A DNA stretch of 50,631 nucleotides from Atopobiaceae bacterium (GTDB lineage Bacteria > Actinomycetota > Coriobacteriia > Coriobacteriales > Atopobiaceae), in assembly GCA_017459605.1 (NCBI GenBank), contig JAFUCQ010000083.1, positions 1-50,631 of the forward strand, in the 5' to 3' direction. The notes below the pieces were generated by a model, which was not told where the DNA came from, did not search any database, and saw only the letters and a program-made list of their open reading frames with translations. Within the stretch, counting starts at the first letter, position 1; each line of letters opens with the position of its first letter. Position numbers and translations under genes: made by a program. Shown here piece after piece: positions 1 through 44,469 of the stretch.

Positions 1-424
1 GGGAATCGGGGGTGACACAGCCCTCGACGTCAAAAGAAGGTCTGTGCAGCAGGTCGATAGCGAATCGAAGGAGTGGTTAGCGAATTAATCAGCGTTTCCT
101 TAAGAATTGGCCAAAAGCTGCAGGGGCCAAGTAGGGCAAGGCGGTTAGACCGCAGCAGCAGAGAGGGCAGGGTGAGGATATGAGTATTCATGGCATGCGC
201 GTTATACGCGGCGCAATTCCTATGCTTGGCATACGGACAGCACCCACGAAACGCTTGTTATGTAGTGATGTGCGCATAGTTCTGCCGCATGAGTCCCCTC
301 CAAGCTGCAAGGCTCCTCCAGAACGAGAAGGTCCTTTGGATTTTCCACCCCGACTCGAATAGCACTACAAACGGCGATATATGCAAAAGCATTGAAATAG
401 ACCAGTGAAATGAAAGGAAAGCAT
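1..424. other. Non-coding region upstream of the giant adhesin gene
   Basis: I find no convincing gene in these 424 bases. A 60-codon frame at 180-362 starts after a purine-rich stretch, but its product (many Pro and Arg, no recognisable motif) does not look like a known protein. The region presumably holds the promoter and 5' leader of the adhesin gene. The only clear signal is the GAAAGGAAAG Shine-Dalgarno at about 412-421, which sets the adhesin start at 425. I see no clear -35/-10 pair. Confidence 0.5.
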
Positions 425-11698: not shown

Positions 11699-11797
11699 CC
11701 AATATGTTATGCTCGACATACTGGTTGTCAGTTGTTAATCCCACTAATAATGAATGGATTGCAAGCAGGTCTGGCTACATATCTGGGGGTACATCTC

Positions 11798-13495
11798 ATG
11801 GCACGCACAGTGAGCATCGGAGCACAAGGGTTTGAAGAGCTTCGCAAGATTGATTGCTTCTACGTAGACAAAACCGCCTTCATTGCTGAATGGTGGAACT
11901 CAGCAGATGTGTCCACCCTCATTTGTCGTCCCCGCCGCTTCGGCAAAACCTTGCTCCTAGATACTGTCCGTTGCTTTTTCTCAACTGAGTTTGCTGAGCG
12001 TGGAGAAGAGCTCTTTGCAGACCTTGCTGTCTGGCAAGATCTGAAGCTGCGCGAGGTCCAAGGAAGCGTCCCTGTCATCTTTATCTCTTTTGCTGCAGTA
12101 AAAGAACAAAACTATAAGGACGCATTAACGCGTATCAAAAGACTCCTTGTTGATGAGGTAGTGAGACACAGCTACCTTCAGAGATCTGTAAATGTATCTG
12201 ATTCTCGCAAAGACTTTTTTGCTCATGTCAGTGACAGTATGGACAACTCTCATGCTGCAGATGTTCTCAACCAGCTGACTCAGGCCTTACTTGAGCACCA
12301 CGGGATTTCTCCCATCGTTCTTCTCGACGAATATGACACCCCCATGCAAGAAGCATGGCTCGGAGGCTTTTGGGATGAGATGGCAGCGTTTATGAGAAGC
12401 TTCATGAACTCCACCTTCAAAACTAATCCCTCACTCGGACGGGGTCTCATGACCGGTATTACCCGTGTTTCTCGAGAGTCAATCTTTTCTGACCTCAACA
12501 ATCTTAACGTGTGTGGAGTAACAGCTGAGAAGTACACCACCTCCTTTGGCTTTACCCAACAAGAAGTAGATGCAGCCTTAGTTGAGTTTGGTATGCAAGA
12601 AAAACGAGACAAAGTACAAGAGTGGTATGACGGCTTTTGCTTTGGAGACATAGAAGGTATTTACAATCCGTGGTCTATCACGAAGTATTTGGACACCAAG
12701 AAATTTGAACCTCACTGGATGAATACCAGTGGAAATGCTTTAGCTGCGGATGTTGTACGCACAGGAGAAGATGACATAAAGAAGGACTTCGAAATACTTT
12801 TGAGCGGGGGATGTGTTTCTCAAGTCATAGATGAACAAATCATTTTCTCAGAGCTTGGCTCAAGCTCAAGTGCTGCTTGGAGTTTGCTTCTATCCTCAGG
12901 GTACCTTACAACCACAGCAGAGGCGCCTGAGCAGTTCGACGACCCTCGCTTGTTGCGCCTTACTAACCTTGAGGTTCGCTTGAGTTTTGAAAAGCTCATC
13001 AAGCGCTGGTTTTATCGCGCTGGCTCTGCACGCTATGACAGCTTTGTTCACTCTATTCTTACAGGAAACGAAGAGGATGCCACAGACTATCTCAACGACA
13101 TCACCATTAGCTGTATGTCTGCCTTTGATGGAGCTACACACACAGCAGAGTCTGAACCTGAGCGCTTCTACCACGGACTGGTGTTAGGACTTCTTGCAAG
13201 TCTTCGAGGCCGCTATACGGTTGAATCCAACCGAGAAAGCGGTAGAGGTCGCTATGACATTATGCTTGTTCCCACCAAAGATGCCCAAGTGAAAGACACC
13301 CCCATCATCATTGAGTTCAAAGTCTTTGACCCTCGTCGAGAGTCAACCCTTGAAGACACCGCTTCCCGAGCGCTTGCCCAGATAGAAGAGCGCGCCTACG
13401 CAACCACCTTAATCGAGCGGGGCTTCTCGGCAGAGCATATCCTCTCATACGGCATTGCCTTCCGTGGCAAAGAGTCACTTGTGGTTTGCCGCTGA
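11798..13495 (+). CDS. AAA-ATPase-like protein with C-terminal PD-(D/E)XK nuclease domain (DUF1703 type)
   Basis: A 565-residue protein of the AAA-ATPase_like/PDDEXK_9 type. ATG 11798 is chosen because a G-rich GGGGGT site lies 7 bases upstream and the family begins near the motif IDCFYVDKTAFI; an in-frame upstream ATG at 11732 would add 22 unlikely residues. The N-terminal half has the family's Walker A variant RPRRFGKTLLL and Walker B-like VLLDEYDTPM. The C-terminus has GRGRYDIML and IIIEFKVF, fitting the D...ExK nuclease core. Such genes are common accessory genes in gut and oral bacteria; their function is not established, though mobility or defence is often suggested. It stands alone between the adhesin and the ORF6N insertion and ends 200 bases before the 63-bp repeat. 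Confidence 0.85.
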   Translation: MARTVSIGAQGFEELRKIDCFYVDKTAFIAEWWNSADVSTLICRPRRFGKTLLLDTVRCFFSTEFAERGEELFADLAVWQDLKLREVQGSVPVIFISFAAVKEQNYKDALTRIKRLLVDEVVRHSYLQRSVNVSDSRKDFFAHVSDSMDNSHAADVLNQLTQALLEHHGISPIVLLDEYDTPMQEAWLGGFWDEMAAFMRSFMNSTFKTNPSLGRGLMTGITRVSRESIFSDLNNLNVCGVTAEKYTTSFGFTQQEVDAALVEFGMQEKRDKVQEWYDGFCFGDIEGIYNPWSITKYLDTKKFEPHWMNTSGNALAADVVRTGEDDIKKDFEILLSGGCVSQVIDEQIIFSELGSSSSAAWSLLLSSGYLTTTAEAPEQFDDPRLLRLTNLEVRLSFEKLIKRWFYRAGSARYDSFVHSILTGNEEDATDYLNDITISCMSAFDGATHTAESEPERFYHGLVLGLLASLRGRYTVESNRESGRGRYDIMLVPTKDAQVKDTPIIIEFKVFDPRRESTLEDTASRALAQIEERAYATTLIERGFSAEHILSYGIAFRGKESLVVCR

Positions 13496-14771: not shown

Positions 14772-14834
14772 AGTACAATCTGTTGAGCTGTTCGGTATGT
14801 ATAGGAGAGTTCATGGCTTCAGATTCAATTGTCA
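14772..14834 (+). repeat. Copy 2 of 63-bp direct repeat at the true uvrA start
   Basis: Second perfect copy of the 63 bases seen at 13696-13758. It supplies the RBS, ATG 14813 and first seven codons of uvrA and marks the right edge of the inserted 1076-bp unit. The base just left of the repeat (14771) and the base just right (14835) both differ from copy 1. Confidence 0.95.
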
Positions 14835-17683
14835 TCAAAGGTGCCCGCGAGCACAATTTGGCCAATATAGATGTCACTATCCCGCGAGACAAACTCGTGG
14901 TCATCACCGGACTTTCGGGTTCAGGCAAGTCAAGCCTTGCCTTTGACACCATCTATGCAGAAGGTCAGCGTCGCTACGTAGAGAGCCTGTCAAGCTATGC
15001 GCGCCAGTTCTTAGGTCAGATGGACAAGCCAGATCTCGATTCAATCGACGGCCTGTCTCCTGCGGTTTCGATTGACCAAAAGACAACGTCAAAAAATCCG
15101 CGCTCAACCGTGGGTACCGTGACCGAGATTCACGACTACCTGCGCCTGCTCTATGCACGCATCGGCATCCCTCACTGCCCTGAGTGTGGACGCGTTATTG
15201 AGCGCCAAACAACAGACCAGGTGGCAGACAAGGTTATCGCTCATGCGTCCGGGCGGCGCGCCTACGTACTTGCCCCTGTCATCATTGGGCGCAAGGGTGA
15301 GTACACCAAACTCCTTGATGACCTCAAGGCAGAGGGTTTTTCGCGCGTTCGTATAGACGGGGAGCTCCGTGAGCTCGAAGAAGACATTAAACTCGACAAA
15401 AAGTTCAAGCACACCATCGAAGTCGTCGTTGACCGTGTCGTGGTCAAAGAAAGCTCCACTGCCCGTATTGCTGAGGCAGTTGAGCAAGCAACGAAACTTG
15501 CTTCAGACAAGGTTGGCTTTTATCTACTCGCAGACCGTGACAATCCAGAAGAAATGCCTGAAGAGCTCCTGCAATACTCGCTTGCACTTGCATGCCCTGA
15601 GCATGGCCACTCCATCGATGACTTGCAGCCCCGTGACTTTTCCTTCAATGCACCCTACGGAGCCTGTCCTGATTGCGATGGTCTTGGCGTACGCAAGGTG
15701 GTTGATGCTGAAGGTCTCATCGAAGATCCCTCGCTCTCTATCGCAGAAGGCGTTTTTGGCAGTCTCTTTGGACGCTCTAATTACTATCCGCAGATTTTTG
15801 CTGCTGTGTGCAATCATTTGAAAGTCGACATCAACACACCGTGGCATGACCTACCCGCAAAGGCACGCGAAACCTTCCTCGATGGCCTTGGTGACAAAAA
15901 AATCCGTGTCGACTACCACACGCTTGATGGCAGAGACACCCACTGGACGGCTACCTTTCCAGGACTGCGCAAAATCCTCTTTGAGAAATACTCCGAGACC
16001 ACCAATGAAATCATGCGCACACGCCTTGAAAAGTACATCCGAGAAGAGCCCTGTTCGAGCTGTGGGGGAGCACGTCTCAAACCTGAGATGCTGGCGGTCA
16101 CGGTGGGTGACAAAAACATCGACGAGCTGAGTCGCCTTTCGTGCCGCGAGAGCCTTGAGTTCTTTGACCGGATTGAACTCACCGAACGCCAACAGGTTAT
16201 TGGCTCGCGCATTGTGAAGGAGATTTGCGAGCGTCTGCGCTTTATGGTTGACGTAGGACTCGATTACCTCACGCTATCTCGCGCTTCAGCGACCCTGTCT
16301 GGCGGAGAAGCTCAGCGCATCAGACTGGCAACTCAGATAGGTGCAGGACTCATGGGTGTTCTCTACATTCTCGATGAGCCTTCCATCGGTTTGCACCAAC
16401 GAGACAACGATCGTCTCATCAGAACTCTTGAGCGCCTACGAGACCAAGGAAATACGGTTATTGTGGTAGAGCACGACGAGGACACCATCCGCTCAGCAGA
16501 CTATGTACTCGATATTGGCCCTGGCGCCGGTGAACTCGGCGGCCGCGTGATTGCCGAGGGTGCTCCTGCAGACATCATGGCACAGAGCGAGTCGGTAACT
16601 GGCGCATATCTCACGGGTGCTCGTATGGTTAAGCTGCCAGAGAAGCGCCGCAATCCACGCAAGGGCAAGCTCAAAATCACTGGAGCAAGCTGCAACAATC
16701 TCAAAGGCCTTGACGTTTCCATCGAGCTGGGAACCTTAACAGTGGTCACGGGTGTCTCTGGTTCTGGCAAAAGTTCGCTGGTAACAGACACGCTGGCGCC
16801 TGCACTTACCAACGCCGTGCACCGCTCTCATCGTCCGGTGGGAGATTACAATCGTCTGAGCGGTATTGAGCGTATCGATAAGGTCATCGACATTGACCAA
16901 AGTCCCATTGGCCGTACACCGCGCTCAAATCCCGCCACCTACATTGGCCTGTGGGATGACATGCGCCAGCTCTTTGCTTCAACACCCATGAGCCGCGCAC
17001 GGGGCTACTCCCCGGGGCGCTTCTCGTTTAATGTGAGCGGAGGGCGCTGTGAAGCGTGCAAAGGCGACGGACAAATCAAAATTGAAATGAACTTCCTGCC
17101 CGATGTGTACGTTCCCTGCGAGGTGTGCCATGGTGCTCGCTATAATCGAGAAACCCTCGAGGTAGTTTATCGCGGCAAAACCATCTCAGATGTGCTTGAC
17201 ATGAGCGTTTCAGAAGCGCTTGGCTTTTTCGCTAACATCCCGCGCATCAAGCATAAGCTGCAAACCTTGTATGACGTGGGCTTGGGATACATCAAGCTGG
17301 GACAACCCGCTACCACCCTTTCTGGCGGAGAAGCGCAGCGCGTGAAACTTGCCAAAGAACTTCACCGTCAACAAACGGGCAAGACCTTCTACATTCTTGA
17401 TGAGCCTACAACGGGTCTTCACTTTGAGGACGTTCGACAGCTGCTTGACGTGCTACAACGTCTTGTTGAAACGGGCAATACGGTGCTGGTTATCGAGCAT
17501 AACCTCGATGTCATCAAGGTGGCAGACCGCATCATTGACTTGGGTCCTGAAGGGGGAGATGGAGGTGGGACGCTGGTTGCATACGGCACTCCTGAAGAGG
17601 TTGCGCAAGTTCCCGAGAGCTACACAGGACACTACTTGGCTCCAATCCTTGAGCGCGACCGCAAACGGCAGCAAAATGCTTAA
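14813..17683 (+). CDS. uvrA: UvrA, excinuclease ABC damage-recognition ATPase
   Basis: UvrA (956 residues, normal length) finds bulky DNA lesions and loads UvrB in nucleotide excision repair in the cytoplasm. Two ABC cassettes are visible: Walker [11 protein letters not shown] (about residue 30) and [10 protein letters not shown] (about 645), signature LSGGEAQR in each half, and Walker [11 protein letters not shown] and [10 protein letters not shown]. Zinc-binding CxxC pairs occur at CPDCDGLG and, in the C-terminal half, CEACKGDG and [11 protein letters not shown] 14813 follows AGGAGAG. Its first 22 bases and upstream promoter region are also present 1076 bases upstream, so the gene has survived an insertion at its 5' end, and its promoter now has new upstream sequence. 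uvrC is at 42439 in this window. Confidence 0.97.
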
Positions 17684-17724
17684 GCCCAGCGGTAACAGAT
17701 AGGTGTACGCCGACGCCGGTCGAG

Positions 17725-17783
17725 TGCACCGACACGTGCACCGGCACATGCACGGACACGTGCACCGGCACATGCACGGACAG
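17725..17783. repeat. 24-bp tandem repeat downstream of uvrA
   Basis: About 2.5 copies of a 24-bp unit starting TGCACCGGCACATG. The unit is rich in GCAC/GTGC and could fold. It lies 42 bases past the uvrA stop. One frame would read as a His/Arg repeat, but no RBS or plausible gene supports coding. Confidence 0.85.
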
Positions 17784-17894
17784 TCTCGTGCCACCGCTGT
17801 TTCAGCGGCTGCTCAGCATCGTGTACAGCCCTCCATCAAAGGACCAAAAAGCACCCCGTCTGAACTGGGAAGATGTAAGCTCTGTGTACGCTAT

Positions 17895-17930
17895 TTGAGC
17901 CATTTTGCATAAGGGTCTATCATAGACCCT
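17895..17930 (+). promoter_or_regulatory. Promoter with palindromic operator-like site for the NlpC/P60 gene
   Basis: TTGAGC (17895-17900) and TATCAT (17918-17923) are separated by 17 bases, a good sigma-70 type layout. A perfect palindrome with 9-bp arms (AGGGTCTAT, centre C, ATAGACCCT) covers 17912-17930 and overlaps the -10 box. A repressor or regulator binding there would control the hydrolase gene; this is inferred. Confidence 0.55.
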
Positions 17931-17966
17931 CAGTGAAAATGTAAGCCAATGCAAAGAGGTTTCACA

Positions 17967-19439
17967 ATGAACTTCAAAAACATTGGGTCGTTTATTATCG
18001 CGTTTATGTGTGCATGCGCCATGGTTGTTGGTGCGGCGACCCCCGTAGTTGCTCATGCTGCTACGTCTGATGAAATTAAGGCCGAGATGGGCGAGGTACA
18101 AGCACGACTCGGTGAGCTTTATACAGAAGCAGAACTCACATCCTATGAACTCCAAAGCACAACCGCTGCCCTTGAGCAGACCAATGGTCGTATCGGAGAA
18201 ATTGAGCAAGAGATTCCCGTTACCGAGGCTGAACTGAACCGCGCCAAAGACATCCTTGCAAGTATTGTTTCGGGTGACTACAAAGCTGGTGGCACCATGA
18301 ATCTGCTCGCCATCGTTTTGGGTGCGGTTGACTTCGACGATTTTGTTTCGCGTGTGACCTATGCCAACAGGATTTCTGTTTACCAAGAAGATGTGGTAAA
18401 CGAGGTCAAAACATTGGAGTCTTCGCTCAAGCAGCAGCGCTCAGAGCTCGAAGACCAGCGCATCGCCCAAGAACAGCTCGTTGAAGAGTCGCGTCAGAGA
18501 AATGATGCAGTTGAGGCAGCGGTGGGTTCTCTTACCAGCTATCTTGATCAGCTCTCTGACGAGATGAAAGCTCAGCTTGCTGCAGAAGAAGAAGCAGCTG
18601 CCAAAGCCGCTCAGGAAGCAGCGCAAAAGCAAGCAGAGGCAGCAGCCGCTCGCGCTGCACAGGAGCAGCAAGCTGCAGCGGCCGCCTCATCAAGTGATCG
18701 CTCGTCAGATGATGAGCCAAGTGAATCTGAGCCTTCCTCGAGCCCTGCTTCAACGGTGGAGCCCTCAGCTCCGCAGACAGCTTCGCAAGAGCCGAGTACC
18801 CCGAGTCAGTCGAGCTCAACTCCTGCGGCTGAGCCAACGCCTGCACCAACCCCGGCTCCAACACCCACGCCTACACCAGCTCCTGCTCCCTCAACACCAA
18901 CCCCTGAGGAAGAGGAAGACGAGATCCCTTCAAGCACGCCATCACGTTCGAGCTCTTCGAGTTCGTCAACCTCTAGTTCAAGCTCGAGTTCCAGCTCGTC
19001 AAGCTCAAGCTCCTCGAGCTCGAGTTCCTCGAGTTCGAGCTCAGCTGGCTATCACAGCTCAAGTGGCAGTGCCGCAGCTATGGTTGCACGCGCCTACACC
19101 GCAATTGGTGCAGGTTATCGTTGGAGTGGCTACGTGTGGACAGGAAGCCCCTACGGATCTGCCTTTACCTGCTCTGGTCTGGTTGACTTTGCCCTTGGAC
19201 GCAGAACCAACTCGAGCTGGCCAGAAAGCCTCTATGCCGAGGTTGGTTCTGGTATGGTTTACAGAACCAGCCAGCTTGCCTATGGCGACCTTGTCTTTTA
19301 CACATACGGTGGACGAGCCCCAGGACACGTGGGTATCTACGTGGGCGATGGCATGATTATCGACTCGATTCCCAACGGTGGTGTCGCTGTGCGCTCAGTC
19401 AATTACATGAACTTTATCGGTGGCGGCCCGATTGTGTAG
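17967..19439 (+). CDS. Secreted NlpC/P60 peptidoglycan hydrolase with coiled coil and poly-Ser linker
   Basis: A 490-residue secreted cell-wall endopeptidase. ATG 17967 follows AGAGGT with 6-base spacing; an in-frame ATG at 17949 lacks such a site. Residues 1 to about 33 are a signal peptide ending VAHAA. Residues about 35-210 are a coiled-coil region like those of PcsB/RipA-type hydrolases, which often bind the FtsEX divisome complex. A Pro/Thr/Ser linker follows, with about 30 nearly uninterrupted Ser (about 329-359). Residues about 370-490 are NlpC/P60 with catalytic Cys in FTCSGLVDF, His in PGHVGIYVG and a polar third position near IPNG. It would cut peptide stems between D-Glu and the diamino acid (family knowledge). 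A palindrome overlaps its promoter. Confidence 0.93.
   Translation: MNFKNIGSFIIAFMCACAMVVGAATPVVAHAATSDEIKAEMGEVQARLGELYTEAELTSYELQSTTAALEQTNGRIGEIEQEIPVTEAELNRAKDILASIVSGDYKAGGTMNLLAIVLGAVDFDDFVSRVTYANRISVYQEDVVNEVKTLESSLKQQRSELEDQRIAQEQLVEESRQRNDAVEAAVGSLTSYLDQLSDEMKAQLAAEEEAAAKAAQEAAQKQAEAAAARAAQEQQAAAAASSSDRSSDDEPSESEPSSSPASTVEPSAPQTASQEPSTPSQSSSTPAAEPTPAPTPAPTPTPTPAPAPSTPTPEEEEDEIPSSTPSRSSSSSSSTSSSSSSSSSSSSSSSSSSSSSSSSAGYHSSSGSAAAMVARAYTAIGAGYRWSGYVWTGSPYGSAFTCSGLVDFALGRRTNSSWPESLYAEVGSGMVYRTSQLAYGDLVFYTYGGRAPGHVGIYVGDGMIIDSIPNGGVAVRSVNYMNFIGGGPIV
18954..19044 (+). repeat. Serine-codon low-complexity tract
   Basis: A run of AGC/TCG/TCA/TCC/AGT codons encodes about 30 residues that are nearly all Ser. 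Codon choice is mixed, so the amino-acid repeat is kept without a strict DNA repeat. It forms the linker before the NlpC/P60 domain. Confidence 0.9.
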
Positions 19440-19483
19440 CTCACCTGAGCACGACCAACGAGCAGTCTAAAGGCACCCAATCC

Positions 19484-19987
19484 GTGGCACGTAAGGACAA
19501 CAGCAAAAAGACCAATGCCATGCGTGAGCTCGAGCGGGCAGGCGTTGACTATTCTGTACTCAGCTATGACGACGACGGCGAGCGTGGACACGAACTGGGT
19601 GTCCACATCGCCGAGCTGCTCAACAAAGATCCCGACACCTGCTTCAAGACGCTTGTCTGTACTGCTGCATCAGGCGGACATGTTGCCTGCTGTATTCCCG
19701 TAGCCTATGAGCTTGACCTCAAAAAAGCTGCAGCCGCCCTCGGCGAAAAGTCACTCTCGATGCTTCCGCTCAAAGAGCTCGAAACGGTGACAGGCTATGT
19801 TCGCGGGGCGTGCACGCCGCTTGCACTTAAAAAGCCCCTACCCACACTCATCGACGAAAGCGCCCTGCTTTTTGACGAGATTTCTATCTCGGCAGGCAAG
19901 CATGGCTACTCACTTGTCCTCAATGCCGAGAAGCTCGGAGAGCATCTCGGGACCATCTTTGCTGACATTACCAGAGAGGTGCAGTAA
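19484..19987 (+). CDS. ybaK: YbaK/EbsC-type Cys-tRNA(Pro) deacylase
   Basis: A 167-residue trans-editing enzyme that hydrolyses Cys (or Ala) wrongly attached to tRNA(Pro) in the cytoplasm. Length and sequence fit the family: TNAMRELERAGVDYSVLSY at the N-terminus, FKTLVC in the core, the AAAALGEKSLSML segment, and GYVRGACTPLALKK with the conserved GG/CTP-type loop. The start is GTG 19484, with AAAGG about 10 bases upstream. Its stop codon overlaps the murJ start by one base (TAATG), so the two genes are translationally coupled. Confidence 0.92.
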   Translation: MARKDNSKKTNAMRELERAGVDYSVLSYDDDGERGHELGVHIAELLNKDPDTCFKTLVCTAASGGHVACCIPVAYELDLKKAAAALGEKSLSMLPLKELETVTGYVRGACTPLALKKPLPTLIDESALLFDEISISAGKHGYSLVLNAEKLGEHLGTIFADITREVQ

Positions 19988-21684
19988 TGGCAGAATCGAC
20001 GCAACAACCCACGCAACACACAGCGGAGCGAACGACGCAACCGTCCGCGCAACAACCCACACAACAACCCGTACAACCGACCACGCAGATTCATGAGGTC
20101 GAGCAGGTTGACTCCGAGCAAGTAGGTCGCTCTGCTGCTCTCATGAGCGTGCTTGTCATCGTGAGTCGAATCACGGGATTTCTTCGGACATGGGGGCAGG
20201 CTTTTGCCCTGGGAACAACCTTGCTTTCGAGTTGCTACACGGTAGCGTCAAACCTTCCCAACCAGCTCTACGAGCTCGTGATGGGAGGCATGCTTGCAAC
20301 TTCGTTTTTGCCCGTATATCTGAGCGCAAAGCAGCGCGACGGTTCTGAAGAGGCCAATCGATACGCAAGCAATCTCTTGTCAGTTTTGTTGCTCTTTATG
20401 GGAGTGCTATCTGTTGCAGGTATCTTCTTTGCTCAGCAATTCATCTGGACCCAATCGTTTACCGCATCAGAGACCTTCGACTCAGATCTTGCGGTCTGGT
20501 TTTTCCGCTTCTTTGCAATTGAAATTGCTCTGTATGGTTTGTCTGCCGTGTACTCGGGCATTCTCAACGCTGAGCGAGACTATTTTTGGAGCAATGTTGC
20601 TCCCTTGCTCAACAATGTTGTGTGTACCGCGTCCTTTTTCCTCTACGCACTACTTTTGCCAACGAACCCGCAGCTTGCCATGCTTATCTTGGCGATAGGT
20701 AATCCCGCAGGTGTTGCGATTCAGGCTATCGGACAAATTCCTGCGCTCAGGCGCCATGGGATCCGGTTGCGGCTCAACATCGACTGGCATGACCCCAAGC
20801 TTATCGAGACGCTCAAAATTGGGGCGCCAACTCTGCTTCTAACGGTCATTTCGTTTGCAACAACCTCAGTCATGACTACTGCGCTTTTGTCGGTCACCGA
20901 TCAAGGTGCATCCATTGCCTATTATGCTCGCTTGTGGTTTACCTTGCCCTACGCAATCATCGCTATCCCCATTACTACAGCGATGTTTACCGAGCTTTCC
21001 ACCATGGCAGGAAACGACGACATGGCAGGATTTGTCCATGCGATTGGCTCGGGTGCTCGACAAATCCTGTTTTTCCTCGTGCCGTTTGCGGTCTATCTCA
21101 TCTTGTTCTCTCGCTTTTTGGTAGGACTTATGGCGGTGGGTCGCTTTGAGGCAGACCAGATTAATCCCACAGCATCGTATCTTGCAGCACTTGCCACCTC
21201 GCTTCCTGCCTACGGCATTACCACCTACCTGCAAAAGGTCTGCTCGGCTCTGAGGCGCATGAGCTATATCTCAATCTCCAGTCTCATTGCAGGTGTTGTG
21301 CAGGTAGTTGTGTGTCTCACGCTCGTTGAGCGCTTTGGAATTGAGATGGTCGCCTTTTCGTCAACTGCGTTCATGTGCGTTGTTGTGGGAGTTACTCTGT
21401 TGAGCTTGAGAAAACAGCTCGGTCCTCTCGACATATCTGGTATGGCAATCACCACGGTCAAAGCGCTCGCCTTGGGTCTTGCTGGTGGTGTGCCTAGCTT
21501 TTTTGTTGCACGTTTTATACACCAGTGGCTCTTTGCTGAATCTGCCAGCTTCTTTGAGTCGCTCATTCCGCTGGCTATCGGGGGAGTCGTAGCACTTCTC
21601 ATTACCTTTGGTGTCGCAACTAAGCTCAAAGTCCCTGAGGCAAGCTTCATCGAGCGCTTGCTGTCACGCTTCATCAAGCACTAA
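19987..21684 (+). CDS. murJ: MurJ-like lipid II flippase (MVN family)
   Basis: A 565-residue integral membrane protein that moves lipid II across the membrane for peptidoglycan synthesis. After a Gln/Thr-rich cytoplasmic tail of about 45 residues (repeats such as QQPTQ), the MVN core starts with SVLVIVSRITGFLRTWGQAF and NLPNQLYELVMGGMLATSF, family hallmarks. About 13-14 hydrophobic segments follow. The start ATG 19987 overlaps the ybaK stop. The N-terminal tail is not part of the usual core and is low in complexity. A tandem duplication begins within its stop codon. Confidence 0.92.
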   Translation: MAESTQQPTQHTAERTTQPSAQQPTQQPVQPTTQIHEVEQVDSEQVGRSAALMSVLVIVSRITGFLRTWGQAFALGTTLLSSCYTVASNLPNQLYELVMGGMLATSFLPVYLSAKQRDGSEEANRYASNLLSVLLLFMGVLSVAGIFFAQQFIWTQSFTASETFDSDLAVWFFRFFAIEIALYGLSAVYSGILNAERDYFWSNVAPLLNNVVCTASFFLYALLLPTNPQLAMLILAIGNPAGVAIQAIGQIPALRRHGIRLRLNIDWHDPKLIETLKIGAPTLLLTVISFATTSVMTTALLSVTDQGASIAYYARLWFTLPYAIIAIPITTAMFTELSTMAGNDDMAGFVHAIGSGARQILFFLVPFAVYLILFSRFLVGLMAVGRFEADQINPTASYLAALATSLPAYGITTYLQKVCSALRRMSYISISSLIAGVVQVVVCLTLVERFGIEMVAFSSTAFMCVVVGVTLLSLRKQLGPLDISGMAITTVKALALGLAGGVPSFFVARFIHQWLFAESASFFESLIPLAIGGVVALLITFGVATKLKVPEASFIERLLSRFIKH

Positions 21685-27968: not shown

Positions 27969-29663
27969 GTGAGACCAACGACCCCAAAGGGTTTTCGAGA
28001 TATTCTTCCCAACGAGGCGCTCGCCCGTGAGCGTATCATCGACAGTGCAAAAGCCTGCTTTGCAGCTCATGGCTATCTGCCTGTCGAGACACCCCTCCTA
28101 GAAGACAAATCTTCAATTGAGCAGGCAGGACGCATACAAGACTCGCCATTTCAGCTCTTTGACACCGATGACCGTCTCCTCATTTTGCGCCCTGACCTCA
28201 CCTTGCCCATAGCGCGCATGGCATCCGCCCGTATCCGTGACGAAGAGCTACCTATGCGTTTTCGCTATGTGGCTCCCGTAGTGAGAGAGTCGGGGGACCT
28301 CAAGGGACAGCCTCGCCAGTTCACACAGCTCGGAGTTGAGCTTATCGGAGAGGAAGGGGTGACCTCTGAACTCGAGGTTATTCATTTGCTTGCCGAGCTT
28401 CTTTCCACTCTCAAGGTTTCGGGCTGGAAAATCGTGTGCGGATCGGTCAAGCCTTTGTTGTCACTTCTTGAAACCTGTGCTCCAAACGAGAACTTTCTCA
28501 AGGAGGTTCTGGACTTAGTCCACGAGTCTGACCTCGTGGGACTCGATAAGCTCGTGCAAACTGCAGATGTGAGTGAGGCGGCAAAAGCAGCGCTCAAGCT
28601 CCTTCCGCAGCTCCACGGGGGAGTGAACGTTATTGACGAGCTCGACCGGCTCTTAGCCCAAGCAGGAGTAGAGCGAAAAGACAGCGGCATCGATACTATC
28701 CGTCAGCTGCTCGCAGGGCTCTCTGATGAGCTGGAATCAGGGCGTCTGAGCTTTGATTTCTCGATAATCAATTCCTTCGACTATTACACGGGGATTATCT
28801 TCAAGGCATATTCTGATCAGGTGGCTGCTTCTTTGGCATCGGGAGGACACTACGATGCGGTCTTTGCAAATCTCGGACGAAATGGGGTGGGTGCCTGCGG
28901 TTTTGCCTGTTCGCTCGAGCGTCTGCAAGAAGCCATTGCAGAGCATGATGAGACAAGCACCCAGGGCGGTGCCAACGCGAGTGTAAGTGGTATGGCACAC
29001 CGCGGTGTACGCATGAAAGACCGTCCGCTGCGCATTGCTATTCCCAAAGGTTCGCTTTTCAAGCCCACGCTTGAAGCACTTGCAGGCGCGGGTCTTGATG
29101 TGAGTGCCCTCGATGACATAGGTCGTCGCCTCATCATTCAGACCCCCGAGGTTGACTACGTGATTGTTCGCGCACAAGACACGCCAGCTTTTGTCGCCTA
29201 TGGCGGAGCTGACTGCGGTATTTGCGGCTACGACTCGCTGGTTGAGGCAAACATTGAGCTCATACACCTTGTTGACCTCGGCTTTGGCTGGTGCAAGTTT
29301 ATTGTGGCTGAGCCGGAGGCCGCAGCAGGACAAGCCGAGCAAGCCTACGAATGGCGTGGATCGATGCGTGTAGTTACCAAGTATCCTCGCATTACGCAGG
29401 CATACTATGACCGCATTGGTCAGCAGGTAGATATCATCAAATTGCACGGAAATATCGAGCTTGGACCTATCATAGGTATGGCAGACCGTATCGTTGACAT
29501 TACAGCTACGGGCACAACGCTTGCCGAGAATAACCTCGTGGTTGTTGACGACGTCATGGAATGTACAGCTCGCTTCTTTACGAGTCCCGCAGCGTATCGT
29601 TCTGATCCGCGGATTCGTGCTCTTGCCGATAAACTCCAAGACTATGTAGGAGACGTCCAATGA
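27969..29663 (+). CDS. hisZG: HisZ-HisG fusion: ATP phosphoribosyltransferase with fused regulatory subunit
   Basis: The first step of histidine synthesis (ATP + PRPP to phosphoribosyl-ATP). The protein is 564 residues. Residues 1 to about 330 are HisZ, a histidyl-tRNA-synthetase-like regulator (PKGFRDILPNEA, ILRPDLTLPIARMAS, RQFTQLGVELIG, FDYYTGIIFKAY). A short linker leads to a short-form HisG at about 351-564 (RIAIPKGSLF, DCGICGYDSLVE, PRPP loop DITATGTTLAEN). HisZ and short HisG are normally separate subunits of one complex. The start is GTG 27969 with AAAGGA 7 bases upstream. No stop codon lies between the halves. The stop overlaps hisD (ATGA). Confidence 0.92.
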   Translation: MRPTTPKGFRDILPNEALARERIIDSAKACFAAHGYLPVETPLLEDKSSIEQAGRIQDSPFQLFDTDDRLLILRPDLTLPIARMASARIRDEELPMRFRYVAPVVRESGDLKGQPRQFTQLGVELIGEEGVTSELEVIHLLAELLSTLKVSGWKIVCGSVKPLLSLLETCAPNENFLKEVLDLVHESDLVGLDKLVQTADVSEAAKAALKLLPQLHGGVNVIDELDRLLAQAGVERKDSGIDTIRQLLAGLSDELESGRLSFDFSIINSFDYYTGIIFKAYSDQVAASLASGGHYDAVFANLGRNGVGACGFACSLERLQEAIAEHDETSTQGGANASVSGMAHRGVRMKDRPLRIAIPKGSLFKPTLEALAGAGLDVSALDDIGRRLIIQTPEVDYVIVRAQDTPAFVAYGGADCGICGYDSLVEANIELIHLVDLGFGWCKFIVAEPEAAAGQAEQAYEWRGSMRVVTKYPRITQAYYDRIGQQVDIIKLHGNIELGPIIGMADRIVDITATGTTLAENNLVVVDDVMECTARFFTSPAAYRSDPRIRALADKLQDYVGDVQ

Positions 29664-38672: not shown

Positions 38673-41600
38673 GTGTCAGAATTGGTAGGTTCAACAGTGG
38701 AAGCAACAACTCACATAAAAGAAATGTCAAACACCCAAGAATGGTCAAGCCCGCAGGGAAGACTGCGTCAAGAGCTTGCCAAACGAAGTGGCACCAATGC
38801 AGCAGATTGGTTTTTGTGCTTTAAAGCACGCCACGCCATGCTTGTGGTGTTTCGCGAAATCTGCGAACTCTATGGCGGGGGAGAGGTAGCAACACAGCTC
38901 TTTACCTGCTGTACTGCCGTCAATCCTATCATCGCTGCAGGGCTTACTCCGCGCTACTATGACATATCGTCTGACACATTGTCGCTTAATCCCAATCAGA
39001 TGGAGCTCAGCGAGCGAACCCGAGCTGTTGTGTGCCAGCACAGCTTTGGCATAGTTAACAACAAAACTACGGCTGATCTTGCACAGGCCGCGCATGCATA
39101 CCACGCAGTGCTCATGGAAGACAGTGCCCACTGTGTGGGGCGTTTAGCACAAGATTCTGACGGTCATCCTATAGCAGACATCTCAATTCACTCATTTGGA
39201 ATCGAAAAGATGCTTCCCGGGGTCTACTTTGGCGGTGCCATCTGGCTGAATCCCAATATGGAGAACGCCCAGTTAAGGCAGGCAATTGCAGCGCGACTCT
39301 CAACGCTTGAACCCATGGACGAGAAACTCGGACGAGCTGTCCAGTCTTATCGCAATCAGCTCAGGATGCTCACGCGTCTTCCAAAAGCTGCATCTCAAAC
39401 CCTCAAGGAGCAACTCACTGCCCGAGGACAGCATGAGCCTGGCTTGAGCTATCTCGAGCTCAGGGGTGGTGTTGCACATGAACCTTGCTCACCAAACGAC
39501 TGGGTGTGCGAACAGGCACTGAGTGCAATGCAGAATCTCAATCAAAACGAGACGCAGCGCATGAGCACAACGGAGATTTACCGCCAGATGCTGCACAACA
39601 ATGCGCAGATTAACATCCCTGCAGCCGTCTTGGATGCAGATGCTCAGCCGCTTTTGCGTTTTCCCGTGCTTCTTCCCAGCAAACAGGCAGCTGAGCGCCT
39701 GAATGAGAAGATTTGTGAGCTGGGGTACTACACATCTGCGTGGTATCGTCCCTTGCTCTATCCCGGTGTGGCAGAACCTGCTGCTTATGGCTTGACTGAG
39801 CAGGGCTTCGAGCTGTGGCCACAAACCGTTGACATATCTGAGCGTGTTGTAAACCTTCCAACTGACGCTGGCGATCAAGCGGCGCGTCGTATTGTTGCTG
39901 CAGTTGAGGAAATCACGCACGAATACGTACCTGCGAAGAAAAGTTCGGGCGGACTTCTGGCAAGCACTGGCGAGGTGCGCGACCGTCTTCAACCCGTCAT
40001 TTTGGGTGGAGATGTCTTGGCGTACGCCTATTCGCGCGAATTTGACCGCGCGTACGGTGTGCATCCCATTGTGCTCTCTGCAATCGATGTCCAGCTCACC
40101 TCATCGAGCAAGCTCTGTGACTATCGTATTGTTGAGGGCTTCCAAGATGAAGAGCAGCTCGTACCTTACCTCATGAGTCTGGCAGAGGAACTCAAAGCTG
40201 CAGGCAAGCTTCCGCTGCTTTTGGGCTCTGCAGACTGGCATGTTCGTCTTATCAGCAAAAATGCCCCTGAGCTTGGCAAACATTACGTGATTCCCTATAT
40301 CGACTTCGATTTGTATGAGGAAATCACCCAAAAGGAGCGCTTCTACGAGCTGTGTGAAGAGCTTGGTATCGCCTATCCCAAGACGGTCTATCTCGATTTG
40401 GCTGACCCAGATGTGACCCTCGATGAATTTGCGTTTGACTATCCGCTTATCGCTAAGCCATCGAACTCACCTGCGTATGACCTGCTTGAGTTTGAGGGAA
40501 AGAAGAAGATTTATGAGATTCAAACTCCCGCAGAGCTGAGACAGGCGTTTGAGGCGGTAAAGGCTTCAGGCTATGCCCACAAGCTGGTGCTTCAGGAGTT
40601 TGTGCCGGGCGATGACGACGCAATTCGCTCGCTTACAACCTTCTCCGATGCTCAGGGCAAGCTCCAACTGGTTTCAGGTGGACGCGTCATCCTGCAAGAC
40701 CATGCCCCGCTCATGCTAGGCAACCCCGTGTGCATTATGCTTGAGCGCGTTGAGCCCATCATCGAAGGCGCCCGGCGATTCCTCGAGCACGTTGGTTATC
40801 ACGGTTATGCAAACTTTGATATCAAGTACGATTCTCGCGACGGAAGCTACAAGTTCTTTGAGGTCAACGCGCGCCCTGGTCGAAACACCTACTACGTGTC
40901 ACTCGGAGGCGTAAACTTTGTAAAGCCGCTGGTAGAAGATTTTGTTTTGGGCCATGAGCTCAACTATACCGAGGCTTATGATTCGGCGCTCTATACCATG
41001 GTGCCGTCCTATGTTGTGAGCAAGAGTGTCCATGATGAGCAGCTCAAAACCGAGGTGCTGTCCATGTACAAGCGCGGACTTGCACACTCGCCTGAGGACA
41101 ATCCCGCCGACACAATCAAGCATCGTTTGCTCGCTCAGGCTTCTTCTATGAGGCAGATTCAAAAGTTTAAGCGCTATCTCTGGGATGTCGAGAAGGAGCG
41201 TCATGCCAACAATACTGCAGGAGTTGCCGAGCCAGACTTGGCCGACAAGTCCGCTGTCACAGAGCCAGACTTGGTCGACAAGTCCGCAGTCACAGAGCCA
41301 GACTTGGCCGACAAGTCCGCAGTCACAGAGCCAGACGAGACCAGCGATCCTGCAAGCGGCTCACAAACAGATCATGCCAACACGTTTGCAGCGAGCACGC
41401 CGGCTGCTGCTCCAATCAGCTGCCGAACCATCTCACTCACCGAGCTTCAGATGCTTGCCCAGAATGCAGGGGTGACACGTCCTATCGAGCAGACTTCGGA
41501 GTGGGCAGCTTACGAGCAAACCGTCAACGGACGCAGCTATTGGGGATCGGTCGCTATTGAGCAAGGCGGCAACCCCTGTGGCGTCTGTGCGCTTATCGAT

Positions 41601-42431
41601 TACGAGACCCACGGCTATCACTACCTGCGCTCACATCACGGACCTGTCTGGTTTGACAAGCCGAACGAAACCCAAGAGCGCGAGCGTCTGCAAGCTCTCG
41701 CTGAGCATGTGCGCAACAAAGACAGCAAACCAGTCTTTGCTCGCCTCGCCATTGCTTATGAACACGATATCTGCTCAGAGGTGCTCTCAACAGTTCCTTA
41801 CAACGAGACAGTCATCATTGATCTCTCGGGAACGGATGAGGACATCCTTTCTCGCCTCAAGTCGCGCGGCAGGCGAGATGTTCGCAAGGCGCTGCGTGAG
41901 TCACCCATAAGCTGCGCAGATGAGACCGATGCAGCCATGGCTGACTTCTCTGAATACTATGCCGTAATGGTCGAAACTGCCGAGCGTGATGGCTTTGCAC
42001 CAGCACCAATGAGCGATTATCAAAACATGATGCGCTGTCTGGGCAAAGAACATGTGCGCCTCTATGCTGGCAGAGACGAACAGGGAAGGCTTACCAACTG
42101 GTCGCTCGAGACCATATCGGGCACGCAAGCAGTCCATTACTACGCTGCCATGAGAACAGAATATATGCGACAGTTTGTCGCTGACCGACTCATCTATTTT
42201 GCCTTCTGTGAACTGGCAAAACGCGGAGTCACAAGCATCGACCTCATGGGAATAGGTAATGATTTTGCACCAACTCTCAAGGGACTCAATACCTTCAAAT
42301 GCAAGTTCAGTCCAGACACCGTATCGGTGGCGCCAGACCGCGATCTCATCTTAAAGCCACTCATGTACAAATCGCTGACGGCAGTCAAAAACGTGAGAGC
42401 GCGAGTTGCACAGCGGGGCAACACGAAATGA
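38673..42431 (+). CDS. Three-domain fusion: DegT-like PLP enzyme / D-Asp-ligase-like ATP-grasp / FemABX-like aminoacyltransferase
   Basis: A 1252-residue protein. Residues about 25-420 resemble the DegT/DnrJ/EryC1 aminotransferase fold, with PLP-binding Asp in LMEDSAHCVG and Lys in GIEKMLPGVYFGGA. Residues about 430-840 are ATP-grasp. Segments VILGGDVLAYAYSREF, VIPYIDFDLYEE, LQEFVPGDDD and YANFDIKYDSRDG, and the metal site FFEVNARPGRN, resemble D-aspartate ligase (Aslfm) of enterococci as I remember it. A repeat linker (about 850-890) leads to residues about 915-1250, a GNAT/FemABX-like domain (DILSRLKSRGRRDVRKAL, DLMGIGNDFAPTLKGLNTFK), as in peptidoglycan bridge-forming transferases. A role in building the peptidoglycan side chain is inferred. 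GTG 38673 is the first start; GTG 38697 after GGTAGG, or ATG 38724, is possible. No neighbouring gene is needed to explain it. Confidence 0.85.
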   Translation: MSELVGSTVEATTHIKEMSNTQEWSSPQGRLRQELAKRSGTNAADWFLCFKARHAMLVVFREICELYGGGEVATQLFTCCTAVNPIIAAGLTPRYYDISSDTLSLNPNQMELSERTRAVVCQHSFGIVNNKTTADLAQAAHAYHAVLMEDSAHCVGRLAQDSDGHPIADISIHSFGIEKMLPGVYFGGAIWLNPNMENAQLRQAIAARLSTLEPMDEKLGRAVQSYRNQLRMLTRLPKAASQTLKEQLTARGQHEPGLSYLELRGGVAHEPCSPNDWVCEQALSAMQNLNQNETQRMSTTEIYRQMLHNNAQINIPAAVLDADAQPLLRFPVLLPSKQAAERLNEKICELGYYTSAWYRPLLYPGVAEPAAYGLTEQGFELWPQTVDISERVVNLPTDAGDQAARRIVAAVEEITHEYVPAKKSSGGLLASTGEVRDRLQPVILGGDVLAYAYSREFDRAYGVHPIVLSAIDVQLTSSSKLCDYRIVEGFQDEEQLVPYLMSLAEELKAAGKLPLLLGSADWHVRLISKNAPELGKHYVIPYIDFDLYEEITQKERFYELCEELGIAYPKTVYLDLADPDVTLDEFAFDYPLIAKPSNSPAYDLLEFEGKKKIYEIQTPAELRQAFEAVKASGYAHKLVLQEFVPGDDDAIRSLTTFSDAQGKLQLVSGGRVILQDHAPLMLGNPVCIMLERVEPIIEGARRFLEHVGYHGYANFDIKYDSRDGSYKFFEVNARPGRNTYYVSLGGVNFVKPLVEDFVLGHELNYTEAYDSALYTMVPSYVVSKSVHDEQLKTEVLSMYKRGLAHSPEDNPADTIKHRLLAQASSMRQIQKFKRYLWDVEKERHANNTAGVAEPDLADKSAVTEPDLVDKSAVTEPDLADKSAVTEPDETSDPASGSQTDHANTFAASTPAAAPISCRTISLTELQMLAQNAGVTRPIEQTSEWAAYEQTVNGRSYWGSVAIEQGGNPCGVCALIDYETHGYHYLRSHHGPVWFDKPNETQERERLQALAEHVRNKDSKPVFARLAIAYEHDICSEVLSTVPYNETVIIDLSGTDEDILSRLKSRGRRDVRKALRESPISCADETDAAMADFSEYYAVMVETAERDGFAPAPMSDYQNMMRCLGKEHVRLYAGRDEQGRLTNWSLETISGTQAVHYYAAMRTEYMRQFVADRLIYFAFCELAKRGVTSIDLMGIGNDFAPTLKGLNTFKCKFSPDTVSVAPDRDLILKPLMYKSLTAVKNVRARVAQRGNTK
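41229..41339 (+). repeat. 33-bp in-frame tandem repeat in the fusion-protein linker
   Basis: Three copies and a partial fourth of a 33-base unit coding EPDL(A/V)DKSAVT. Copies differ by one or two bases, so they arose recently. They join the ATP-grasp and transferase domains with an acidic, flexible linker whose length may vary between strains. Confidence 0.92.
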
Positions 42432-42438
42432 GCAGTTC

Positions 42439-44469
42439 ATGAGCGATAGCGCAGGCGACATCCCGCACACAAACGAGCAAGACTCGTATCGTGCGAAAAG
42501 TGGGCAGGGCACTGAAACCAGTCAAAACCATGAGCTGAGTCTTGCCGAGCAGGTCGAGCAGGTTCCTACAGAGCCCGGCTGTTACCTGTGGAAAGATATT
42601 ACGGGCCGTGTCCTTTACGTGGGTAAAGCAAAGAACCTGCGCGCCCGAATGCTGCAGTACATCAGGCGTGAGGACGACCGCGCCATGATTGGTCGTCTCA
42701 TGCTTGAGGTGGCGGGCTTTGATTACGTGGTGGCATCAACTGAGCATGAAGCGCTTGTTCTCGAGATCAACCTTATTCAGCGTCACCATCCTCCATACAA
42801 CGTTGCCCTTATGGACGACAAAAGCTATCCCTACATCGCACTTACCAAGTCTGACGCATATCCTGCCATCAAGTACACCCGAGAAAAGCACAAGCCGGGA
42901 ACTCGCTACTTTGGTCCTTTCACCGATGCCCGGGCAGCGCGCGAGGCGGTTGAGCTGGTGCGAAAAATCACTCCTTTGTGTGCTGCGAGTTGTGCTGAAT
43001 GGCGCAAGTGTACGCGTGTGCTAGCAGCGCACGAACAAAACGCCACTAAGGAAGATAAGGCAATCGACCCCCAACATATCCTTCAAAAAGAGGGAGGTCG
43101 TCCTTGTTTTGACTCTCACGTAGGAAAAGGCCCAGGCGTTTGCGTAGGCGCTCTTTCTCCTGAAGACTATGCAGTTCATGTTCGTCAAGTCGAGCAGTTC
43201 ATGGCAGGAAAGCGTTCCCAGTTTGTAGCTGAGCTCACCGACGAAATGACAGCAGCGGCAGCAGAACTCGACTTTGAAAAAGCAGCTCGTGTCAAGCGTC
43301 GCTTGGATGTTATCGAGAGCCTCTTCTCGAGTCAGCGCGTGGTACTTTCTGCGGCACTTGATGTCGATGTTATTGGTCTGTGGAGAGAAGAGACCATTGC
43401 TGCTGCTTGCGTTTTTTTGGTTCGAGAAGGCCGCGTGGTACGCAGCGGCGAGTTCATCTTGGACAAGGGTCTTGATGTGGGGGAGTCAGAGCTCACAAGC
43501 TCTTTTCTCAAGCGCTACTACAGTGAGAGCACCGACATTCCTATTGAGATTGACGTAGCCTCAACACCCGATGACACCGAGCACATCGAGGCGTGGCTCT
43601 CTGAGCGTCGGGCCCGAGCGGTAAGCTTGCATATTCCACAGCGAGGTCAGCGCGTTCAGTTGCTTGAGATGGCTCAATCAAACGCCCGCCACGCGCTCAT
43701 GCGACACTCTCTGAGAACAGGCTACGAAGACAAGCGCTCGAACCAAGCCCTGCTCGAGCTCGAAAATGCACTTGGTCTCGACGACGCGCCCATGCGTATC
43801 GAATGCTTTGTCATCTCAACCATTCACGGTAAGCATACCGTGGCATCAATGGTGGTGTTCAATGGGGGACACCCCGACAAGTCGCAGTATCGGCGCTTTA
43901 AGATTAAAACGCCACTTGATGAGGCAAATGACTTCTTGAGCATGAGTGAGGTTTTAGGCAGGCGCTATGCTCCCGAGCGGATGGCAGACGGCCGCTTTGG
44001 TGCCCGACCTGACCTGCTCATTCTCGACGGAGGCAAGCCACAGCTCTCTGCCGCGCTTGAACAGCTCGAAGCTCTGGGGCTTAATATCCCGGTAGCCGGA
44101 CTTGCCAAGTCAGACGAGGAACTTTTTGTTCCGTGGGACGACACCCCCGTGGTTCTTCCCAGTGGCTCTGCCTCGTTGTATCTGGTAAAACGTTTGCGTG
44201 ATGAGGCGCACCGCTTTGCTATTACCTTTCCCCGTGAACTGCGCGACAAGGCGATGACGGTGTCCATCTTGGATGAGATTGACGGCGTTGGTCCCAAGCG
44301 TAAACGTGCGCTACGTCGTGCGTTTGGCTCAATGAAGCGCCTGCGTGAGGCATCACTTGAAGATATTGAGGCGGTCGAGGGGATTTCTGCCGATGTTGCA
44401 CGCGAGGTGTATGAAACGATGCGTGCGTGGGAGGCAGAACTTAGTGCTGGTGATAATACATCGGAATAA
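42439..44469 (+). CDS. uvrC: UvrC, excinuclease ABC endonuclease subunit
   Basis: A 676-residue nuclease making both incisions in nucleotide excision repair. Seen: the GIY-YIG domain (EPGCYLWKDITGRVLYVGKAKNLR, with Tyr and Gly positions), a UVR motif (MTAAAAELDFEKAARVKRRL), the RNase H-like endonuclease domain (ECFVISTIHGKHTVASMVVF; LLILDGGKPQL) and C-terminal tandem HhH (LDEIDGVGPKRKRAL and VEGISADVAREV). ATG 42439 is chosen over an in-frame TTG at 42406; the RBS is weak. It starts 7 bases after the fusion gene. After the TAA the frame stays open for 24 codons of Ala/Thr/Pro/Val repeat. Confidence 0.95.
   Translation: MSDSAGDIPHTNEQDSYRAKSGQGTETSQNHELSLAEQVEQVPTEPGCYLWKDITGRVLYVGKAKNLRARMLQYIRREDDRAMIGRLMLEVAGFDYVVASTEHEALVLEINLIQRHHPPYNVALMDDKSYPYIALTKSDAYPAIKYTREKHKPGTRYFGPFTDARAAREAVELVRKITPLCAASCAEWRKCTRVLAAHEQNATKEDKAIDPQHILQKEGGRPCFDSHVGKGPGVCVGALSPEDYAVHVRQVEQFMAGKRSQFVAELTDEMTAAAAELDFEKAARVKRRLDVIESLFSSQRVVLSAALDVDVIGLWREETIAAACVFLVREGRVVRSGEFILDKGLDVGESELTSSFLKRYYSESTDIPIEIDVASTPDDTEHIEAWLSERRARAVSLHIPQRGQRVQLLEMAQSNARHALMRHSLRTGYEDKRSNQALLELENALGLDDAPMRIECFVISTIHGKHTVASMVVFNGGHPDKSQYRRFKIKTPLDEANDFLSMSEVLGRRYAPERMADGRFGARPDLLILDGGKPQLSAALEQLEALGLNIPVAGLAKSDEELFVPWDDTPVVLPSGSASLYLVKRLRDEAHRFAITFPRELRDKAMTVSILDEIDGVGPKRKRALRRAFGSMKRLREASLEDIEAVEGISADVAREVYETMRAWEAELSAGDNTSE

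Follow-up and report, generated by a model that had tools for sequence, protein, structure and literature searches.

An open reading frame joining DegT-type, ATP-grasp and FemABX domains in an Atopobiaceae bacterium and its probable role in peptidoglycan interpeptide bridge synthesis

Three enzyme domains in one open reading frame

The DNA analyzed here is a 50,631-nt contig of an uncultured gut actinobacterium of the family Atopobiaceae (assembly GCA_017459605.1, contig JAFUCQ010000083.1; hereafter the window), which carries on its forward strand a triple-fusion open reading frame (ORF) at 38673..42431. From a GTG codon the frame runs through 1252 codons with no internal stop and encodes, in this order, a DegT-type pyridoxal 5′-phosphate (PLP) enzyme (D1, residues ~30-417), an ATP-grasp amino-acid ligase (D2, ~431-840) and a FemABX domain, that is, a Fem/MurM-type aminoacyl-tRNA-dependent transferase (D3, ~915-1240). 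A single open frame with these three domains and their key motifs had been proposed from the sequence alone (the original prediction), and ORF scanning, Pfam searches and alignments confirmed it. GTG 38673 is probably the wrong start and ATG 38724 is the more probable one, because several relatives start near there and residues 1-18 have a predicted local distance difference test score (pLDDT) below 50 in the structure model. Third-position G+C is roughly even throughout the frame, and closer relatives of each domain align with ~40-64% identity over nearly the full length; the frame is therefore not a product of chance. The NCBIfam scan of the fusion protein returned zero equivalogs over the cut-off.

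D1 (38760..39923, + strand) matches Pfam DegT_DnrJ_EryC1 on residues 57-198 (3.2e-17, 63 bits, cut-off 19.8). Its AlphaFold2 (AF2) model has a mean pLDDT of 91, and the Foldseek matches are DegT-family aminotransferases (E ~1e-16, 14-20% identity). Both the PLP lysine K179 (codon 39207-39209, +) and the PLP-binding aspartate D150 (codon 39120-39122, +) are invariant among 30 aligned D1 sequences, and hence a loss of the lysine, which was specifically looked for in the relatives, was found in 0/30.

For D2 (39963..41192, +), Pfam gave sub-threshold matches only (ATPgrasp_Ter, 1.4e-4), and the assignment comes from structure and homology. The AF2 model (mean pLDDT 94) has an ATP-grasp fold that Foldseek matched at E ~1e-15 to the L-amino acid ligases RizA, BL00235 and YwfE and to PurK, with PylC also among the matches, and in the profile comparison with PDB sequences VanA and Ddl ranked first; tested as a possible non-peptidoglycan ATP-grasp enzyme, the middle domain thus came out as the amino-acid-ligase type. 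In the metal-site motif FFEVNARPGRN (codons 40854-40886, +) the E and N are invariant among 36 D2 sequences; the invariant nucleotide and metal residues in that alignment are K165, K288, E300, N302 and R304 (D2 numbering). Over most of its length D2 is homologous to lactobacillar genes named ‘carboxylate--amine ligase’, with 33-35% identity to the ATP-grasp proteins of Limosilactobacillus fermentum, Latilactobacillus curvatus and Lactobacillus crispatus (E 2e-50 to 2e-62). The L. curvatus homologue sits 3′ of a PF01177 Asp/Glu racemase gene, a pairing that resembles the arrangement in Lactococcus lactis, which has D-Asp bridges and where aslA (D-aspartate ligase) and racD (aspartate racemase) share an operon (PMC4155827).

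D3 (41415..42392, +) passes the Pfam FemAB cut-off of 24 on residues 1148-1239 (2.6e-12, 46.7 bits), with an additional Acetyltransf_6 match at residues 1066-1197, and among PDB sequences its profile matched FemX as well as the lipid II glycyltransferase of S. aureus. The third domain, tested as an unrelated acetyltransferase, was therefore FemABX instead, and all three family assignments of the original prediction were borne out by Pfam, AF2/Foldseek and PDB profiles. The D3 motif DLMGIGNDFAPT begins at 42240 (+), and the DLMGIG region is conserved among 22 sequences. A check for a separate femX-like gene found the fusion to be the sole FemAB match in this genome, which is 89% complete. Between D2 and D3, an in-frame 33-bp tandem repeat of 3.3 copies (41229-41336, +) encodes acidic 11-aa repeats that form the linker.

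A recurrent three-gene module and its fusions

Some part of the fusion protein is held by 225 of 332 Coriobacteriia genomes. Outside the window, where D1, D2 and D3 occur together, they are mostly separate close genes of variable order, often lying between murJ and uvrC. In a survey of gene order covering the relatives and 80 named loci, some of which represent the same genome twice, murJ > D1 > D3 > D2 > uvrC was found at 8 loci, murJ > D1 > D2 > D3 > uvrC at 5 and murJ > D3 > D1 > D2 > uvrC at 2, and further orders exist. The murJ gene of the relatives’ loci, identified by Pfam (2.4e-55), is directly 5′ of the module in many of them and was inside the examined flank at 58 of 109 different D2 loci. 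Culturable species that carry D1, D3 and D2 include Collinsella tanakaei, C. bouchesdurhonensis and Thermophilibacter provencensis; Olegusella massiliensis has D2 only, and Olsenella profusa and Enorma phocaeensis have racD together with D2.

D2 is present as one copy per relative. Across the 60 relatives D1 was found in 13, all of which have D2 (13/13) and 12 of which have FemABX (Fisher p = 6.6e-5, a value made optimistic by the shared ancestry of the genomes). The sole D1 genome without FemABX, G013, is truncated there by a contig end. Its D1 (L065:6786-7950) is broken into two frames near that end, reflecting either a real break or an assembly error. Among genomes sampled from the phylum, D1 was detected in 8/396, all 8 belonging to the window’s own taxonomic order, and the D1 search of viral contigs and plasmids gave no match. 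D1 was also found at one locus of Bifidobacterium pullorum subsp. saeculare (L140). That locus (L140:7001-11984) contains two D2 copies on opposite strands together with D1 and D3, and thereby the whole module outside Coriobacteriia, probably acquired by transfer.

Mapping D1 onto the D2 tree required at least 4 changes, a hint that D1 became associated with D2 on more than one occasion, both on branches that have racD and on branches that do not; a simple replacement of racD by D1 is therefore unlikely. The idea of D1 as an aspartate racemase substitute was rejected as well on the distribution of the genes, as a racD-like gene is present in 4 of the 13 genomes that carry D1 and no mutual exclusion was found (p = 0.71).

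The genes of the module are fused in various ways, and the complete D1-D2-D3 fusion is the single case, present in one assembly only. D1-D2 fusions were found at L024/L082, L080, L086, L088 and L092, and D3-D2 fusions at L046, L047, L048 and L054. At L083 and L113 a different FemABX is fused ahead of D1-D2 (1215 aa stop-to-stop and 1198 aa, respectively); it belongs to a second family (PF02388, 2.9e-25) that is 31% identical to D3 over ~200 residues. Two different FemABX domains have thus been joined to opposite ends of D1-D2, and no other single observation argues as strongly for a joint action of D1, D2 and FemABX. Some candidates were discarded: the N-terminal extensions of D2 at L044, L061, L033 and L012 look like non-coding stop-free stretches 5′ of the gene, and the long frames in G208, G204, G153, G169, G241 and G298 resolved on reading into separate genes rather than triple fusions. 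Directly 3′ of the D1-D2 fusion at L088 lies a second D1 paralogue (L088:8220-9419, +) that retains the PLP lysine.

In the window, the conserved site of the module is marked by a uvrC-like ORF, named from its sequence (42406..44469, +), which lies directly 3′ of the fusion ORF and overlaps its end. The only murJ of the genome, encoding the lipid II flippase (19987..21684, +; Pfam MurJ 5e-57), and a gene for an NlpC/P60 peptidoglycan hydrolase with a PcsB-like coiled coil (17949..19439, +) form with uvrA the uvrA - nlpC/P60 - murJ block known from the relatives. This block occupies 14783-21684 and the fusion begins at 38673, with his genes between them, so that the block next to the module seems to be split in this genome. 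The his group contains a 564-aa HisZ-HisG fusion, in which a HisZ-like part of histidyl-tRNA synthetase type is joined with HisG (27969-29663, +; Pfam HisG 6e-45, tRNA-synt_His 6.5e-19 on residues 201-564). Elsewhere in the window are a surface protein of 3711 aa in which SpaA and FctA domains of the isopeptide pilin type recur (410-11545, +) and a predicted AAA-ATPase with a PD-(D/E)XK nuclease domain (11732-13495, +; PF09820, PF08011).

Weighing a role in interpeptide bridge synthesis

We consider it probable, at roughly 0.6, that this ORF unites in one protein a module that builds the peptidoglycan interpeptide bridge. That the module serves the cross-bridge is well supported by its murJ and racD neighbors, the lactobacillar homology of D2, the recurrent grouping of D1, D2 and FemABX, and the fusions. 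The peptidoglycan-branch reading of the original prediction likewise gained support from the racD and murJ neighbors, the lactobacillar homologues of D-Asp-ligase type, and the FemX and lipid II glycyltransferase matches. In the mechanism that we propose, D3 would move a tRNA-borne amino acid, as a rule Gly or an L-residue, to the side-chain amino group of a Lys/Orn-type stem peptide. D2 would then convert a carboxyl group of an acidic D-amino acid to the activated acyl phosphate and attach this amino acid, so that the bridge has two residues (A4 type); the donor may be D-Asp in racD-linked lineages, and possibly D-Glu or another residue in this genome. D1, with its intact PLP site, would make, aminate or epimerize a bridge residue, either free or precursor-bound, for both ligases, and the order of these steps, their substrates and any channeling within the fusion should be taken as equally provisional. 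A narrower proposal, that the DegT-type enzyme is a dedicated cross-bridge member that makes or epimerizes a D- or non-standard residue with FemABX and the ATP-grasp ligase, and that was repeatedly fused with them and here became part of a single bridge synthetase, is put forward tentatively and falls somewhat short of even odds.

The wall type of related species and the distribution of racD bear on the substrate of D2. L-Lys-D-Asp has been reported for the wall of A. parvulum (PMC3035223) and L-Orn-D-Asp for that of O. uli (PMC3035265), species that are not tied to a genome of this set; the records ‘Olsenella uli An733’ and ‘An820’, which cluster with genomes like those of Thermophilibacter, were left out of the evidence on O. 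uli. Literature searches on the peptidoglycan types of Collinsella, Gordonibacter and Bifidobacterium yielded nothing usable. As to a Lys/Orn-type stem peptide in this organism, the MurE of the window genome carries a DDPG motif, not DNPR. DNPR is typical of MurE enzymes that add diaminopimelic acid (DAP). Beside or close to D2, racD-like genes were found in 8 of the 60 relatives (G002, G006, G008, G024, G025, G036, G038 and G045), and in the D2 tree (loci L023-L157) the D2 types that have a racD neighbor largely form other clades than those that have none, a division that may mark ligases differing in their D-amino-acid substrate (D-Asp vs D-Glu).

Several observations weigh against a D-Asp-type bridge module or against the place given to D1 in it. 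No racD-like gene was found in this genome (89% complete), whose single PF01177 match is of MurI strength, and in the D2 tree none of the loci in the window’s large D2 clade shows a racD-like neighbor. D-Asp is therefore doubtful as the substrate of D2 here, and the enzyme may use D-Glu or another amino acid instead, D-Glu from MurI being the obvious alternative. The solved structures nearest to D1 are mostly nucleotide-sugar aminotransferases, at 14-20% identity; the presence of D1 does not track racD (p = 0.71); and the Fisher test on D1 is optimistic because of common descent, as mentioned above. D2 also occurs, with no D1 or FemABX nearby, in Eggerthellaceae, a family reported to be of DAP type (PMC6113628). 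Protein and profile searches found no D2 in five near-complete 1.5-1.7 Mb genomes of the same family (G014 and G118-G121, genus g15), and if this genus includes A. parvulum, D-Asp is added there by something other than D2. Finally, the likeness to AslA/Aslfm is an indirect one, drawn from lactobacillar homologues of which that of L. curvatus is racemase-linked.

These observations leave room for other explanations, of which the least improbable keeps the bridge for D2 and D3 and makes D1 a linked supply enzyme for another cellular amino acid, e.g. a general transaminase, that does not itself act in the bridge chemistry. Most D2 carriers are without D1, and several of them have FemABX, so that a bridge is evidently possible without D1. 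However, D1 never occurred without D2 in the 60 relatives, it occurs in fusions with D2 and with FemABX domains of two kinds, and it seems to have joined D2 repeatedly, which is unexpected for a general supply enzyme; we therefore regard this role as unlikely. Slightly more unlikely still is that D1 is an ordinary DegT sugar aminotransferase whose amino sugar is acylated by D2 and D3 in a wall glycan or glycolipid. In favor of this, most DegT enzymes are aminotransferases of nucleotide sugars, and the top Foldseek matches of D1 all come from that superfamily. Against it, DegT enzymes that act on non-sugars exist, such as AHBA synthase (1b9h) and Fic25, both D2 and D3 resemble enzymes that form bridges, and D2 is found widely where D1 is absent. 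Moreover, the recurrent neighbors are murJ, the NlpC/P60 hydrolase, racD-like genes and uvrC, and the conserved neighbors examined, with the flanking genes annotated in part, included no sugar-nucleotide dehydratase and no glycosyltransferase.

A module making a tRNA-dependent peptide or a modified amino acid outside the wall, in the manner of natural products, has precedents of a kind: FemABX-like tRNA-dependent peptide synthases beyond peptidoglycan seem to exist (PDB matches 9wqw/9wqy), and ATP-grasp and PLP enzymes have been grouped in predicted peptide pathways (PMC2922099). Nevertheless, the presence in 225/332 Coriobacteriia genomes, the housekeeping site between murJ and uvrC, the racD neighbors and the single D2 per relative fit a core wall function better, and we give such a product little credence. 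It is very improbable, more so than any of the foregoing, that the fusion is an artefact in which an assembly or sequencing error merged three adjacent genes. Although D1, D2 and D3 fused in this order are known from a single assembly, and the D2-D3 junction falls in the tandem repeat, where assemblies err, copy-number errors of a 33-bp unit would preserve the frame. In addition, the 3.7 kb are stop-free with roughly even composition, and other assemblies hold D1-D2, D3-D2 and FemABX-D1-D2 fusions. A one-protein version of the bridge-building module accordingly remains our preferred reading of the ORF.

Bridge composition decides how susceptible bacteria are to wall hydrolases and to some antibiotics, and it influences which muropeptides gut bacteria release. 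The module provides candidate bridge genes for Coriobacteriia such as Collinsella and the relatives of Olsenella, could allow bridge chemistry to be predicted from genomes, and suggests that a PLP enzyme is a bridge component that has gone unrecognized. To our knowledge, the enzymes for acidic D-amino acid bridges are largely unassigned in Actinobacteria.

Comparison with known systems

The closest known counterpart of D2, found in lactic acid bacteria and Enterococcus faecium, is the ATP-grasp D-aspartate ligase AslA/Aslfm with the aspartate racemase RacD. The homology of D2 to a lactobacillar racemase-linked gene (33-35% identity) extends over nearly the full length, and racD-like genes adjoin D2 in several Coriobacteriia as racD does aslA. 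In contrast, D2 here lies in the middle of a fusion, its genome has no gene like racD, and no PLP partner has been described for AslA. D2 also shares its fold, and weak profile similarity, with L-amino acid ligases, D-Ala-D-Ala/VanA ligases and PylC, and amide ligation through an acyl phosphate would be expected of it as well; these enzymes are, however, 12-18% identical to D2 in Foldseek, and D2’s own family is AslA-like.

The known FemABX enzymes include FemX of Weissella, FemX/A/B of S. aureus and BppA1/A2 of E. faecalis. D3 passes the FemAB cut-off and its profile matches FemX, but it represents a divergent subfamily of ~330 residues and shares its polypeptide with an ATP-grasp ligase and a PLP enzyme. 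With the DegT/DnrJ/EryC1/StrS family (DesI, WbpE, ArnB, NtdA, AHBA synthase and Fic25), D1 shares the fold, the PLP Lys and Asp, and the EDxAH and SFGxxK motifs. It differs from them in its 14-20% identity, in that no sugar-pathway neighbors were seen, and in its partners, an ATP-grasp ligase of D-amino-acid-ligase type and a FemABX transferase. In the open-access full-text literature we found neither a published DegT, ATP-grasp and FemAB fusion nor any account of a DegT/PLP enzyme that helps to make the bridge. Ligases and transferases of these kinds are known; new, as far as we have checked, are the fusions and the recurring association with a PLP enzyme.

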